A DNA stretch of 64,000 bases from Pseudomonadota bacterium (GTDB taxonomy: Bacteria; Pseudomonadota; Gammaproteobacteria; Burkholderiales; JAJZQI01), in contig JAJZQI010000002.1 of the NCBI GenBank assembly GCA_021851875.1, positions 62,001 through 126,000 on the forward strand, written 5' to 3'. The position numbers and the translations under genes were made by a program. Each line of letters begins with the position of its first letter. Within the stretch, counting starts at the first letter, position 1. The notes under the pieces are model-generated. The model saw only the letters and a list, made by a program, of their open reading frames with translations. It made no database searches and was not told the origin of the DNA. Positions 27,720-36,175 of this stretch are shown piece by piece.

Positions 27720-28766
27720 TCAGTCCTTCACTGTCACCAGCGGAGCTCCTGCAACCAGGCGCCCGATAACCGTCGCCTGACCGAACCCCTCCTCACGGAA
27801 CAGGGACATTACTTCATCCAGTTTTTCCGGCGCACAGCTGACCAGCAAACCACCGCTGGTTTGCGGATCGCACAGCAATTTCCGCTGCCACTCGGCCATT
27901 CCTTCAGGCAAAACGACATCCTTACCGTAGCTGTTCCAGTTCCGCTTGGCCGCACCCGGCGAGAAACCGGCTTGCACCAGCGGCAACGCTTCCGACCACA
28001 CCGGCAGTTGCGAGAACGTCAGCTCGGCACCGACCATGGAACCGCGACAGACTTCCAGCAAATGACCGAGCACGCCGAAACCGGTCACATCCGTTATGGC
28101 GTTCACCCCCGGCAGCGTCGCCAGGCGGGTACCCGCCGTATTCAGCTGGGTGGTGCTGGCAACCAGCTGCTGATAGCCCGCCTCCGGCAGTTTGCCTTTT
28201 TTCATGGCATCGGCGAATACCCCGATACCGACCGGCTTGCCCAGCACCAGCACATCGCCGGCCTTGCCCTGGGCATTGGTTTTGACATGGGCCGGGTCCA
28301 CGATGCCTAAGGCCACCAAGCCGTAAATCGGCTCCGGCGAATCAATCGAATGGCCGCCGGCAATCGGAATGCCGGCAGCCTGGCATACGCTTTGACCGCC
28401 GGCAAGGATTTCCTGAATGACTTCCAGCGGCAACTTGTCGATCGGCATGCCGACCACCGCCAATGCCATGATCGGCTTGGCGCCCATGGCATACACATCG
28501 GAAATGGCATTGGTGGCGGCAATTCGACCGAAGGTAAACGGATCGTTGACGATCGGCATGAAAAAGTCGGTGGTTGCCACGATCGCCTGTTTATCGTTGA
28601 TACGATAAACCGCTGCGTCATCACTGGTCTCCGTGCCCACCAGCAAATCCTTGTCGATCAGTCCTGTCGGCATTTTAGCCAGGATGTCGGACAACACCCC
28701 CGGAGCGATTTTGCAGCCGCAGCCGCCGCCATGGGAATATTCGGTCAGTTTGATATCGCTTGCCAT
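27720..28766 (-). CDS. selD: selenide, water dikinase (selenophosphate synthase)
   Basis: SelD makes selenophosphate from selenide and ATP, the selenium donor for selenocysteine and 2-selenouridine. The 348-residue protein starts MASDIKLTEYSHGGGCGCK; the Cys-Gly-Cys-Lys segment (about residues 15-18) provides the active-site Cys and Lys, so this is the Cys form, not a selenoprotein. DDAAVYRI, TTDFFMPIVNDPF and the AIRS C-terminal pattern DPQTSGGLLVS are all present. I chose the ATG at 28766 (AAGGA eight bases upstream). It is divergent from mnmH, which uses its product. Confidence 0.96.
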   Translation of the reverse strand: MASDIKLTEYSHGGGCGCKIAPGVLSDILAKMPTGLIDKDLLVGTETSDDAAVYRINDKQAIVATTDFFMPIVNDPFTFGRIAATNAISDVYAMGAKPIMALAVVGMPIDKLPLEVIQEILAGGQSVCQAAGIPIAGGHSIDSPEPIYGLVALGIVDPAHVKTNAQGKAGDVLVLGKPVGIGVFADAMKKGKLPEAGYQQLVASTTQLNTAGTRLATLPGVNAITDVTGFGVLGHLLEVCRGSMVGAELTFSQLPVWSEALPLVQAGFSPGAAKRNWNSYGKDVVLPEGMAEWQRKLLCDPQTSGGLLVSCAPEKLDEVMSLFREEGFGQATVIGRLVAGAPLVTVKD

Positions 28767-28853
28767 TTCGGGATTCCTTTTGCTTAGTCGTACATTATAA
28801 TGGCATGCCCTAGTCGCGCTCAAATCCATTGCGCCTGTTTAGATAGACCTCTT

Positions 28854-29900
28854 ATGCAGAATACCCTTGTCAGTACCGCCGAAATCGGTCAATTCGACAC
28901 CCTCATCGATGTTCGCTCCCCCGCCGAGTTTGCCGAAGACCATATCCCCGGCGCCATCAACCTGCCCGTGCTGGATGATGAGGAACGCGCCCGCATCGGC
29001 ACGCTGTACAAACAGGTTTCCCCCTTCGAAGCAAAAAAACAGGGCGCCGCCCTGGTCGCGCGCAACATTGCCCGCCATATCGAAGAATCCTGCCTGGACA
29101 AACCGAAAGACTGGAAACCCCTCATCTATTGCTGGCGCGGCGGTAATCGCAGCGGTTCGATGACACTGATCATGAACCGCATCGGCTGGGCGGCACGGCA
29201 ACTGGAGGGCGGCTACAAAGCCTATCGCCAACAGGTATTGCAGGATCTGGCAACGCTTCCGGCGCAACTGGACTTTCGCGTGGCGTGCGGATTAACGGGC
29301 TCGGGCAAAAGCCGCCTGCTTGCCGCCCTGCATGCCGCACACGCCCAGGTGCTCGACCTGGAGGGCCTGGCAAGGCACAAAGGTTCGGTTCTGGGACACG
29401 TTCCCGGCAACCCGCAACCAAGCCAGAAATATTTTGAAAGCCTGTTGCGGCAGGCATTGTCCGGCTTCGACCCGGCCCAGCCCATCTTTGTTGAGGCCGA
29501 AAGCAAGAAAATCGGCAACGTTCGCGCCCCTGACAGCCTCATCGAGCGGATGTGGCAAAGCCGCTGCCTGCGACTGGAAGCAAGCACGGCGGTACGCGTA
29601 CAACTGCTGTGCGAAGAGTATCCGCACTTCATCGCCGATCCGGGGCAACTGGGAGAGAAACTGCACTTTCTGACAGCCCGCTACGGCAAAGCCCAAATTG
29701 ATGACTGGAAACAGATGGCTGAAACGGGCCAGTGGGATCAGCTGGTATCGGAGCTGCTGCTCAGGCATTACGACCCCTCCTACGCCCGCTCGATGCTGCA
29801 GCATTACCCCCATTATCCCGCGGCTCCGCAGCTGGCTGTCGATTCGCTCGCGCCCGACCCGTTCCCCGTACTGGCGCAGCAAGCAATCGCACTCGGCTAA
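28854..29900 (+). CDS. mnmH: tRNA 2-selenouridine synthase (SelU)
   Basis: This enzyme replaces sulfur by selenium at the wobble uridine of Lys, Glu and Gln tRNAs, through a geranylated intermediate. The 348-residue protein has an N-terminal rhodanese domain (LIDVRSPAEFAEDHIPGA) with catalytic Cys in IYCWRGGNRSGSM (about residue 97), and a C-terminal P-loop domain with CGLTGSGKSRLLAAL. I chose the ATG at 28854; an earlier ATG at 28800 has no ribosome-binding site and would add non-homologous residues. It is divergent from selD, which supplies selenophosphate; the gap is 87 bases. Confidence 0.93.
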   Translation: MQNTLVSTAEIGQFDTLIDVRSPAEFAEDHIPGAINLPVLDDEERARIGTLYKQVSPFEAKKQGAALVARNIARHIEESCLDKPKDWKPLIYCWRGGNRSGSMTLIMNRIGWAARQLEGGYKAYRQQVLQDLATLPAQLDFRVACGLTGSGKSRLLAALHAAHAQVLDLEGLARHKGSVLGHVPGNPQPSQKYFESLLRQALSGFDPAQPIFVEAESKKIGNVRAPDSLIERMWQSRCLRLEASTAVRVQLLCEEYPHFIADPGQLGEKLHFLTARYGKAQIDDWKQMAETGQWDQLVSELLLRHYDPSYARSMLQHYPHYPAAPQLAVDSLAPDPFPVLAQQAIALG

Positions 29901-31977: not shown

Positions 31978-32071
31978 TCCGACCAGCGGAACTGGGACGG
32001 CCTGCAAGAGGGGAACCGGATGAAGGCAAGGCGCCTCGTCCGGGCTTGTGGGAATTACCCCGGCAAGGCGA

Positions 32072-32674
32072 TCAGACGGAACGTCTTTCCAGCAGGGCCT
32101 GCGCGACCGTGCCGCTATCCACGTGCTCCAATTCACCGCCCACGGGTACGCCGCGCGCGATCCGGCTTATCTTGAGTCCGCTTGCGGCCAGCAGCTGGCT
32201 GATGTAGTGCGCCGTTGCCTCGCCTTCGGCAGTGAAACTGGTGGCGATCACCACTTCGCTCACATCGCCGTCGAGGGCCCGGCGGCTTAACCGGTCGAGG
32301 TTGATTTCCTTGGGCCCGACACCATCCAGCGGCGACAAGCGCCCCATCAGAACAAAATAAAAACCGTTGTAACATTGTGTCTGCTCGATGGTGAGCAGGT
32401 CGGCCGGCATTTCCACCACACACAGCACCGCGGCGTCACGGCGCGGCGAACTGCACAGCTCGCACACGGGCGTTTCGGAGAAGTTATTGCATTTCTCGCA
32501 GTGGTGTATGCGTTCCAAAGCCTGAGCCAGCGCCGCCGACAACTGCCGGGCGCCGGATGGGTCGCGTTGCAGCAGGTGGTAGGCCATGCGCTGCGCCGAT
32601 TTCGGCCCGACGCCGGGCAGGCAGCGCAGTGCCTGAATCAGGCTTTCCAGGCTGGAAGGCGTTTGTGCGGACAC
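32072..32674 (-). CDS. recR: recombination protein RecR
   Basis: RecR with RecO loads RecA at gapped DNA. The 200-residue protein has the helix-hairpin-helix ([20 protein letters not shown]), a four-Cys zinc finger ([16 protein letters not shown]), the Toprim domain with [19 protein letters not shown] and a C-terminal Walker-B-like part ([19 protein letters not shown]). It is last in dnaX-ybaB-recR, eight bases after ybaB, the usual order in proteobacteria. Confidence 0.95.
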
Positions 32675-32682
32675 GGCGGGTC

Positions 32683-33009
32683 TTAGAAAGGCATCTTGAA
32701 GCCGGGCGGCAGATTCAGGCCGGCCATGGCACCGCTCATGCGCTCCTGCGAGGTCGCCTCAATGCGGCGCACGGCGTCATTGACCGCTGCGGCAATCAGG
32801 TCTTCCAGCATATCCTTGTCGTCGGACAACAGGCTGTCATCGATGCTGACGCGCTTGACGTCGTGCTTGCCAGTCATCACCACCTTGACCAGACCGGCGC
32901 CCGCCTGGCCTTCCACTTCCATATTGGCCAGCTCTTCCTGCATGCGCTTCATGTCATCCTGCATCTTTTGCGCCTGTTTCATCAGGCCACCCAGACCACC
33001 CTTCATCAT
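32683..33009 (-). CDS. ybaB: YbaB/EbfC family nucleoid-associated protein
   Basis: A 108-residue DNA-binding protein that dimerises into a tweezers shape. It starts [20 protein letters not shown], the family signature, followed by the amphipathic helix and the core beta-sheet ([20 protein letters not shown]) and ends with a Gly/Pro-rich tail ([12 protein letters not shown]). It lies between dnaX and recR in the conserved order and is probably translated from the dnaX message. Confidence 0.95.
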
Positions 33010-33025
33010 GGCTCTTACTCCTTAC

Positions 33026-34696
33026 TCAATTCACCGGTTTAATCGACGCCTCATCGATGCGGGCATCAAACAATTCCACGCAGGCCCGCACCACCGGGTC
33101 CTGCTCGATCGCGGCCACGGCTTCCGCCTGGCGCGCTGCCTTTTCTCTTTGCACCAACTCATGCGGGGTATTGCCGCTGCCCTCGCCAACGCGAATCCGC
33201 ACCCGCTCGATACCCGACACCTCCTGCTGCAATGCGGCCGTCAGGCGCTCCACGAAGGTGGGATCGAGAAGATGTTTGTGCGCCGGCGGCACTTCCAGAA
33301 CAAGGCCGCCGCCATCATCGGCCACCGGTTCGCAATGCTGCGCCAGCATCCTGGCCATGCCGCCCAGTTTGAGTCGGCCGACCAGATTCGGCCAGTCGCC
33401 GTCATAAGCGGCTGATAGCGTTTTTGCAGGTTGACCAGGCTCCGGCGCTGCTGTACGTATCGGCTCGCAACGTTCGGACGGGACCGGCTCAATGGCGCTC
33501 GCCGCGCGTGCTGCAGTCGCCTCCGATGGTGGCTGTACTGACTGTTTTGACGGCTCAGGCTGTCGAATTAACGAAACGGCTGGAGTTTTTTTTTCAGCCT
33601 CGCCCTGCGGCACGCCGGGAACAAACGCCAGCATGCGCAGCAAGGCCATGCAGAAACCGGTGTAAGCATCCGGCGCCCACTCCATGTCACGTACCGAGGT
33701 AGTGGCAATCTGATAGAGCAGCTGCACGGTCTGGGCATCCAGCGCGTGCGCCAGACGCTCGATGTCGGCCCGCTCGGGTTCGTCAGCCGGCACGGCCTGC
33801 GGCGCCAGCTGCATCACGGCGATGCGCTGCAGCATCACCGCCAGCTCCTGCAGTGCCGCATCCAGCGCCACACTGCGCGCCTGCATGGTATCGGCTGCGG
33901 CCATCAGCGCCGTGCCGTCCTGCTGTGCCAGGGCATCCAGCAGGCGGAAAAGGTAATCGCGCGACACGGTGCCCAGCATGGCGTGCACCACGTCGGCCCG
34001 CACCGCTCCGTCGCCATAGGCAATGGCCTGATCCAGCAGGCTCAACGCATCGCGCATGCTGCCCTGAGCGGCATGCCCCAGCGCGACCAGCGCCGCTTCA
34101 TCCGCCGCCATGCCTTCCTGTTGCAGCACATTGGCCAGATGCTGCGCCACCAGCGCCGGCGGCATCTGCTTCAGACCGAACTGCAAACAGCGCGACAACA
34201 CCGTAACGGGAATTTTTTGCGGGTCGGTGGTTGCCAGGATAAATTTGACGTGCTCGGGCGGCTCTTCCAGCGTTTTCAGCATGGAATTGAAGGCGCCCTT
34301 CGACAGCATGTGCACCTCGTCGATCAGGTACACCTTATAACGCCCGCTGACGGGGGCGTACTGGGCGTTATCCAGCACTTCGCGCATGTTGTCGACGCCG
34401 GTATTGGAGGCGGCATCCAGCTCCAGCATATCCGGGAAACGACCGGCATCGATCTGCTGACAGGCGGCACACTGACCACAGGGGGTAACGGTAATGCCAC
34501 TTTCGCAGTTGAGCGATTTGGCGAAGATACGTGCCAGCGTGGTCTTGCCCACGCCGCGGGTGCCGGTAAACAGGTAGGCATGATGCAGGCGCTGCGCCGT
34601 GATGGCGTTCGACAGCGCCGTCACCACGTGATCCTGCCCTACCACCTGGGCAAACGTTTTGGGGCGCCATTTTCGGGCAAGTACCTGATAACTCAT
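33026..34696 (-). CDS. dnaX: DNA polymerase III subunits gamma and tau
   Basis: The clamp-loader ATPase. The 556-residue full-length (tau) product has Walker A GTRGVGKTT (45-53), a four-Cys zinc module (CESGITVTPCGQCAAC), the SRC motif (VTVLSRCLQF) and clamp-loader domains I-III to about residue 365. Then follow a disordered linker and a C-terminal domain for polymerase/DnaB contact. A run of nine A in the message at the domain III/linker border (33586-33594) could produce a short gamma form; see findings. E. coli tau is longer (643) because of its linker. First gene of dnaX-ybaB-recR, downstream of the 4.5S RNA gene. Confidence 0.95.
   Translation of the reverse strand: MSYQVLARKWRPKTFAQVVGQDHVVTALSNAITAQRLHHAYLFTGTRGVGKTTLARIFAKSLNCESGITVTPCGQCAACQQIDAGRFPDMLELDAASNTGVDNMREVLDNAQYAPVSGRYKVYLIDEVHMLSKGAFNSMLKTLEEPPEHVKFILATTDPQKIPVTVLSRCLQFGLKQMPPALVAQHLANVLQQEGMAADEAALVALGHAAQGSMRDALSLLDQAIAYGDGAVRADVVHAMLGTVSRDYLFRLLDALAQQDGTALMAAADTMQARSVALDAALQELAVMLQRIAVMQLAPQAVPADEPERADIERLAHALDAQTVQLLYQIATTSVRDMEWAPDAYTGFCMALLRMLAFVPGVPQGEAEKKTPAVSLIRQPEPSKQSVQPPSEATAARAASAIEPVPSERCEPIRTAAPEPGQPAKTLSAAYDGDWPNLVGRLKLGGMARMLAQHCEPVADDGGGLVLEVPPAHKHLLDPTFVERLTAALQQEVSGIERVRIRVGEGSGNTPHELVQREKAARQAEAVAAIEQDPVVRACVELFDARIDEASIKPVN
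33586..33594 (-). other. A9 slippery run inside dnaX
   Basis: Nine consecutive A in the dnaX coding strand (codons Glu-Lys-Lys-Thr). Both alternative frames stop quickly: the -1 frame at 33555-33557 (TGA) and the +1 frame at 33568-33570 (TAA), giving products of about 380 and 375 residues. The run is framed by GGCTG and CAGCC, which could pair over it. Confidence 0.65.
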
Positions 34697-34814
34697 GCGG
34701 GAGATTTTACCAGAATCGCCAGACGGATGCCCTGTGCGAATCGCGCATGACCAAATAAATCATTGCCGAAAAAATAAGGGGTGCGACTTGCCGCTGAAAA
34801 ACGGGGAATGGCGA

Positions 34815-34917
34815 GGGGTGGCGAGCCTTACCCCGGCACTTGCAACGAATAGCTGTGGCTGCTTCCTTCCGGACCTGACCAGGTTCACTACCGGGCAATG
34901 CGGGGAGACCCGCCCTA
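34815..34917 (-). ncRNA. ffs: 4.5S RNA (bacterial SRP RNA)
   Basis: The minus strand contains the universal SRP domain IV core GGTCAGGTCCGGAAGGAAGC with its paired flanks (GTGAACCT before, CAGCC after), inside a hairpin about 100 bases long whose ends are GGGCGGG and CCACCCC. Small SRP RNA with Ffh targets membrane proteins. It is directly upstream of dnaX, as in many proteobacteria. Exact ends are approximate. Confidence 0.93.
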
Positions 34918-34984
34918 GAATACTGCCTGAAAAAACAGACAGTCGGATATTATCGCCGACCGGGGCCGCCAAGTCAAAACGGCG

Positions 34985-36175
34985 TTAAGCGGCATGGGAA
35001 AATACCATGCCGCCCCACTCGCCGGTGCGGTGCAAACGCGCCTGATAGACGGCATCGATGATCCGCTCAACCGGCAACAGACCCGCCAGTCTGTTCTCGG
35101 CATCGAGCACGACAAGCGGCTGACCACCCGCCCGCCTGGCCAGACCAAATAAAACCATGACCGATTCATCCAGCTGGACGCTGACGAAATCCGTCCGCAT
35201 GATTTGCCCGGCCACCTCGGGCTTTTCCGAGTTCGGCCCCGGTGTCCGCTTGACCAGACCATGAAGTTTGGCTTGCCAGCTCGAATGAGGCATCGCGGCG
35301 GCGTGGCTGAGGAATTCGCTCTCCGACACCAGGCCAATGACACGTCGTGCGCGATCAACCACCGGCAAGGCAGGCGCGCCCGATTGCTGCAGGGCAAGCC
35401 ATACCTCTTCCAGTTCGCTGCCGAATTCCATCTGCGGCAGGTCGCGCAGCATCAGGTCCGAGCAGCGTTGTCCAGTCACGTCTCGATGCAGCGCGTGCTG
35501 CTCGGCCAAGCGGTAGATCAGCGCCAAGTCGTCACGACTCACATCCAGCACGGCATGCAATTCATTCAGCGCGGCATCGATATCTTCGGCCAGCACGGCC
35601 CCACCGGTCGGCTGCGCGCCGGAATCCTGCATCACGCTGTCGTTGCTGACTGCAGTGCTGCTGCGTTTTTCATACAAGCGCATCAGCCTGCCGTAAACCA
35701 GTGCCAGCGGCAGCAGCACCAGCACATTGAACAGCACCGGTACCGCCACGAAGGGATAGCCCGGCAGCAGGCCCTTATGCGCCAGCACCGCTGCCAGAGC
35801 CGTTGCCGCGCCGGGTGGGTGCAAACAGCGCAACTGGTACATGGCCAGCACGGCAAACGCCACCCCGAGTCCCACCGCACTGGGCTGATCGGATACCAGC
35901 GAGGCAACCAGCACACCGACCAGAGCCGACACCAAATGGCCGCCAAACAGCGGCCAGGGCTTGGCCATCGGGCTGTGCGGCACCACAAAAACCAGAAATG
36001 AACTGGCCGCAATCGAACCCATGAGCAAATGCCCCTGCTGTGGCATTCCGGCCAGCACATCGCCCAACAACCATATCAACCACAAGGCCAGGCCGGCAAA
36101 AACTGCGGCCAGCAGTCGCTGCGACCAGTCAACCGGAAGCAGCCAGCGTAAAGGCAAGGACAGGCGTTTCTTCAT
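34985..36175 (-). CDS. HPP-family membrane protein with two CBS domains
   Basis: A 396-residue protein. The N-terminal half (about 15-170) has five or six membrane helices and the family motif CLHPPGAATALAAVL (His-Pro-Pro). The C-terminal half carries a CBS pair: CSDLMLRDLPQMEFGSELEE starts the first, IMRTDFVSVQLDESVMVLF the second, joined to the membrane part by a linker. CBS pairs usually bind adenine nucleotides and gate transport. Some HPP proteins in plants and cyanobacteria carry nitrite. The ATG at 36175 is preferred over an upstream frame to 36379 because the extra residues look non-coding. It lies 281 bases past an NO-detoxification gene pair on the same strand. Confidence 0.8.
   Translation of the reverse strand: MKKRLSLPLRWLLPVDWSQRLLAAVFAGLALWLIWLLGDVLAGMPQQGHLLMGSIAASSFLVFVVPHSPMAKPWPLFGGHLVSALVGVLVASLVSDQPSAVGLGVAFAVLAMYQLRCLHPPGAATALAAVLAHKGLLPGYPFVAVPVLFNVLVLLPLALVYGRLMRLYEKRSSTAVSNDSVMQDSGAQPTGGAVLAEDIDAALNELHAVLDVSRDDLALIYRLAEQHALHRDVTGQRCSDLMLRDLPQMEFGSELEEVWLALQQSGAPALPVVDRARRVIGLVSESEFLSHAAAMPHSSWQAKLHGLVKRTPGPNSEKPEVAGQIMRTDFVSVQLDESVMVLFGLARRAGGQPLVVLDAENRLAGLLPVERIIDAVYQARLHRTGEWGGMVFSHAA

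Follow-up and report, generated by a model that had tools for sequence, protein, structure and literature searches.

We asked whether a run of nine adenines in a dnaX gene serves to produce a second, gamma-like form of the clamp-loader subunit. The gene lies at 33026..34696 on the minus strand of the window, the whole 64,000-nucleotide stretch of DNA that was analysed, and was identified from the list of open reading frames together with Pfam and NCBIfam. It encodes DNA polymerase III subunit gamma/tau as a single open frame of 556 aa (tau), and the match of its product to TIGR02397 scored 444.5 bits against a cut-off of 250. Pfam assigned the AAA+ domains, with domain III at residues 232-357, and the tau domain V at residues 429-552. 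The linker between the end of domain III (357) and the start of domain V (429), at 33413..33625 on the minus strand, is hypervariable, as judged from Pfam and from comparison with a sibling genome. A small SRP RNA (34817-34914) is located upstream of dnaX, and ybaB/ebfC and recR are located downstream (Pfam). An Rfam search of 32000-36000 at the gathering threshold returned this SRP RNA as its only match.

The A9 run occupies 33594-33586 on the minus strand, 11 codons past domain III and about two-thirds through dnaX. The original prediction had correctly placed it on the coding strand, although its estimate of about codons 367-370 was off by one, the codons being 368-371 (GAA AAA AAA ACT). 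A -1 shift, or one additional A in the mRNA, would append NSSRFVNSTA (10 sense codons before the stop) and end at the TGA at 33557-33555 on the minus strand, yielding a product of 380 aa with the tail ...KKNSSRFVNSTA. A +1 shift, or one A fewer in the mRNA, would append LQPFR (5 codons before the stop) and end at the TAA at 33570-33568 on the same strand, yielding 375 aa with the tail ...KKLQPFR. Both stops, and the predicted lengths of about 380 and 375 residues, were thereby borne out. Both shifted products would retain clamp-loader domains I-III. The break point had been predicted to fall just after domain III, and this agrees with the Pfam boundary at 357 and with the E. coli gamma of the solved clamp-loader entry 1jr3 (373 aa), which aligns to DnaX residues 1-368 and ends where the A9 run begins. 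Judged by this alignment, each of the two short products would make a complete, gamma-like subunit of the clamp loader.

The run was then compared with that of a sibling genome (G001, dnaX locus L085; 85% complete and 6% contaminated), the one other genome compared for the genus and family. The sibling DnaX is 86% identical in protein to that of the window. Within the linker, the codons identical to the sibling numbered 0/4 at positions 362-365, 10/11 at 366-376 and 0/52 at 377-428. The conserved island (codons 366-376; 33569..33601, minus strand) runs from GAGG through A9 to TTA, whose TA opens the +1 stop; this stop is TAA here, and the sibling has TAG at that codon. The sibling likewise has a -1 stop at the codon used here, though the surrounding codons differ. 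Comparison of the run in relatives had been proposed as a check, with interruption in all close ones counting against a slippage site; the sibling carries an intact A9 at the same place and in the same frame. Assembly error is an unlikely source of the run, since a separate genome has the same run and the same open frame. Beyond the genus and family, presence of the run is mixed among more distant families.

The frequency of such runs was estimated at the level of the genome, the window and the single gene. A9 or T9 runs occur at 8 places on either strand in the 2,684,314 bases of the genome, and arithmetic from this frequency gives an expectation of about 0.0003 for an A9 on the sense strand of the 71-codon linker. 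Given the residues E K K, the gene's own codon usage would produce GAA AAA AAA with a probability of 0.17-0.21, so the codons alone are not striking. The nearness of both shifted stops in the window dnaX, taken alone, is within chance (P 0.127 over its linker positions). A8 runs had 4 matches in the window, a number reached by 21 of 100 shuffles and hence not unusual. What is unusual is the place and conservation of the dnaX run, not the presence of A8 runs in the window.

We next turned to dnaX across the order, where 291 of 300 sampled genomes had a dnaX match; the 149 genes used here come from the top of the match list, a sampling bias towards the less distant dnaX genes of the order. Runs of at least nine A were present in 18 of the 149 genes, representing 7 of 39 families; 16 were in the linker and two, both in family f13, just past its mapped end. 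Gamma production via an A-run is not general in the order, as 131 of the 149 genes are without a run of at least nine A and therefore make gamma otherwise or not at all. No such run was found in the 53,170 codons of domains I-III of the 149 genes, no T-run of at least seven in the 149 genes, and no A or T run of at least nine in 193,209 bp of DNA flanking the same loci. When synonymous codons were shuffled within genes, 4.6 runs of at least nine A were expected in the linkers (maximum 10 in 300 shuffles), versus 16 observed. Among the 141 genes with a GC content of at least 0.5, 13 were observed in the linker versus 2.3 expected (maximum 6). The excess over the codon-shuffle expectation is 3-6 fold.

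On a FastTree tree of domains I-III from 160 genes (the 149 genes plus 11 of families f13 and f15), runs of at least eight A require 10 changes and runs of at least nine A require 7. The run is uniform on this tree within f1 (2 genes), f13 (5), f26 (2), f37 (2) and f50 (7); the tallies of 7/7 for f50 and 5/5 for f13 count the genes that extend across the linker and leave out fragments ending before the run (two of f50, three of f13). The immediate context of the run is constant in f13, while its distance from domain III drifts from 61 to 93 codons. Family f15 has at least eight A in 3 of 17 matched genes and lacks such a run in the other 14, and the nearest other family, f46 (L086), is without a run of at least nine A. 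By our grouping, the run of f15, f29, f37 and f13 directly precedes the domain V motif, and that of f1, f50 and f43 comes sooner after domain III. Both shifted frames close within 15 codons at 18 of the 21 sites with at least eight A (counted within the linker or as far as 15 codons into domain V), versus 5.8 when linker positions are drawn at random from the same genes; when each family contributes a single site, both stops lie within 15 codons in 8 of 9 versus 3.6 (P 0.0016). The near-immediate stop belongs to the -1 frame in family f50, where CTAA or CTGA follows A9, and to the +1 frame in f13, where GCTGA comes after A10. Among 80 related dnaX loci, 7 had runs of at least eight A, all of them past domain III. 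Six dnaX genes among these 80 loci (L074, L016, L046, L050, L066 and L075) carry A9-A10 past domain III. The A9 of L074, from Oceanospirillum sanctuarii, is followed by stops after 1 and 3 codons.

The flanking sequences were examined for elements that might stimulate a shift. GGCTG (33599-33595) and CAGCC (33582-33578) form an inverted repeat around the run (33578..33599, minus strand), and the pairing suggested for them was seen in the predicted fold, with the A-run in a 12-nt loop. The further suggestion that this pairing matters was not supported, given that the run sits in the loop, local stability is low and there is no downstream stem. We consider the repeat probably not a stimulator, since the region surrounding the run is less stable than controls: over the 21 sites with at least eight A the mean percentile against control positions was 0.80. 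The fold of 53 nt around A9 was itself unremarkable (z -1.14, with 26 of the 200 shuffles being as stable or more so). No downstream stem was found in f1, where the 40 nt after the run were at percentile 0.96 in the window gene and 1.00 in the sibling, and few parts of the linker are less structured than the stretch that follows the run. In the E. coli dnaX control, the 40 nt after the heptamer were at percentile 0.034, the 50- and 80-nt tests being less clear (0.27 and 0.24), and the upstream Shine-Dalgarno-like site was at percentile 0.00. A hairpin upstream of the run has been reported for slippage at other genes; here the corresponding test gave percentile 0.00 for the window gene and 0.21 for the sibling, and the families were scattered.

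We consider it probable, by a modest measure, that A9 has been selected as a slippage site and would give a gamma-like subunit via RNA-polymerase slippage. Selection is suggested because the cassette is conserved in an otherwise fully diverged linker and recurs at the same place across the order. The claim of the original prediction, that the run would yield a gamma-like subunit in either shifted frame, thus gained support from the sibling island, from recurrence in the order and from the position of the break point relative to gamma constructs. RNA-polymerase slippage of the Thermus type appears more likely than E. coli-type ribosomal frameshifting because the A9 is uninterrupted, stops lie in both frames, no stem follows and the shift would go in either direction across families. 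PMC3711429 takes it as a criterion for transcriptional realignment when genes of the same function shift in opposite directions. According to the proposed mechanism, RNA polymerase would slip on A9 to generate dnaX mRNAs with 8, 9, 10 or more A's. Messages with 9 (or 9+3n) A's would encode full-length tau, and those with other A counts would reach the TAA or TGA within a few codons and encode a protein of 375-380 aa. This product would end just past domain III and would be gamma-like, lacking both the linker and domain V, which binds the polymerase. From the sequence we infer that slippage occurs, that it occurs at transcription, the tau:gamma ratio that results and the joining of the product to the clamp loader.

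The dnaX gene of Thermus thermophilus, for which transcriptional slippage on A9 is described (PMC1088944, PMC5009743), shares with the window gene a sense-strand A9, tau encoded by one open frame, stops close by in each shifted frame and a shorter product without the C-terminal part, which in the window is a predicted product. Unlike in Thermus, where the run is described as lying seven-eighths through the gene, the window run is about two-thirds through; it also belongs to a proteobacterial order and has its stops 5 and 10 codons on. The Thermus type further involves mRNAs with A counts other than 9, and about half of its product is the short form. In the two-ORF type of dnaX described in PMC3711429, an A-run of 7-10 is present and tau needs a shift. 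The window gene likewise has an A-run in dnaX, but unlike this type its zero frame stays open at the run and gives the 556-aa tau. One related example of the two-ORF type came from L070 (JABHSO010000217.1), a gammaproteobacterial MAG in which the zero frame of dnaX closes at 375 aa just after A9. As read from its frames, this gene is of the two-ORF type, and its long form would need a shift.

The same gamma-like product could arise on the ribosome, through -1 frameshifting on A_AAA_AAA in the manner of E. coli, perhaps helped by a Shine-Dalgarno-like element, or through +1 slippage of tRNA-Lys. We regard such an origin as unlikely, even though several features would suit it: the A_AAA_AAA heptamer is in frame, the run lets the tRNA-Lys that decodes AAA re-pair in either frame, and a Shine-Dalgarno-like stretch, AGGGCGAGG (33598..33606, minus strand), lies upstream of A9, with duplex percentiles of 0.07 (window gene) and 0.00 (sibling). 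That stretch is only partly kept, however, as GAGG alone is shared with the sibling and stands only 4 nt from the heptamer in both genes, while the AGGG about 10 nt upstream is found in the window gene only. E. coli dnaX is the same gene with the same class of product (gamma-like, ending after domain III), but it stands out in the 40-nt test, whereas the window gene has no downstream stem-loop; the -1 stop is 1 codon on in E. coli dnaX and 10 codons on in the window gene. Furthermore, the window heptamer is followed by ACT with no A_AAA_AAG in frame, and in E. coli, according to PMC5009743, A_AAA_AAA is much less prone to shifting than A_AAA_AAG. Neisseria is among the genera given in PMC3711429 as having AAA_AAA_G. 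Ribosomal slippage at A9 may nevertheless add to transcriptional slippage. The window also contains selD (27720-28829, minus strand) and mnmH (28800-29900, plus strand; tRNA 2-selenouridine(34) synthase), which are divergently oriented and overlap at their 5' ends. The wobble base of tRNA-Lys, the tRNA that decodes this A-run, is a target of MnmH modification, and selenium status could therefore affect any ribosomal slippage at the run.

The run might also have no programmed function, a lysine-rich hypervariable linker simply happening to hold AAA AAA and a little truncated DnaX being harmless. The absence of a run of at least nine A from 131 of the 149 genes is compatible with this explanation, as is the A9 of a fimV-like gene in the same genome, which is missing in the sibling (L269) and thus indicates that an A9 can arise without being kept. 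We nonetheless think chance improbable as an account of the dnaX run, which sits in the sole island kept within a fully diverged linker. Across the order, such runs exceed codon shuffles 3-6 fold and do not occur in domains I-III or in the 193 kb of flanking DNA, and they are kept through whole clades while their position drifts, as in f13. Alternatively, a gamma-like form could be cut from tau by proteolysis, the A-run being unrelated. Proteolytic gamma is known in Caulobacter (PMC5009743), and the majority of order genes, being without a run of at least nine A, must have another route or none. Proteolysis leaves the conserved DNA cassette and the shifted-frame stops unexplained, and we consider it highly improbable here.

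Slippage in dnaX is already known in other bacteria; the added and less expected element looks like its repeated rise in this order at the linker after domain III. Literature searches at the level of titles and abstracts found no report of A-run slippage in dnaX of this order. It is possible, although we stop a little short of favouring it, that poly-A slippage in dnaX arose many times independently in the order, at two or more positions and in either shift direction. If so, selection would act on having a gamma of roughly this size, whichever shift mechanism supplies it, and Proteobacteria other than the E. coli lineage would commonly obtain gamma through RNA-polymerase slippage. The importance of gamma has long been in controversy, as recounted in PMC5009743. 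Repeated independent gain at the same domain boundary, together with strict upkeep, would be evolutionary evidence for a useful short DnaX. Since the order includes clades that carry the run, clades that lack it and clades whose shifts would go in opposite directions, the need for gamma becomes testable by comparison.

Three of the 8 A9/T9 places in the genome are sense-strand A-runs in recognisable genes, namely dnaX, the fimV-like gene and a glycosyltransferase-like gene. The fimV-like gene (L198:61-2943; run at G000 C30:148860-148868) encodes 960 aa and has its A9 right after a membrane-like segment; the +1 stop (TGA) is immediate and the -1 stop is 4 codons on, so that the product of a shift would lack its C-terminal part. 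At L194:447-3008 and L201 of the same genome, A9 lies in a methyltransferase/glycosyltransferase-like frame and T9 in an rfbC-like frame, these names being taken from the translations. An A10 with a -1 stop after 1 codon occupies the same place in the fimV-like gene of L272 (family f22).
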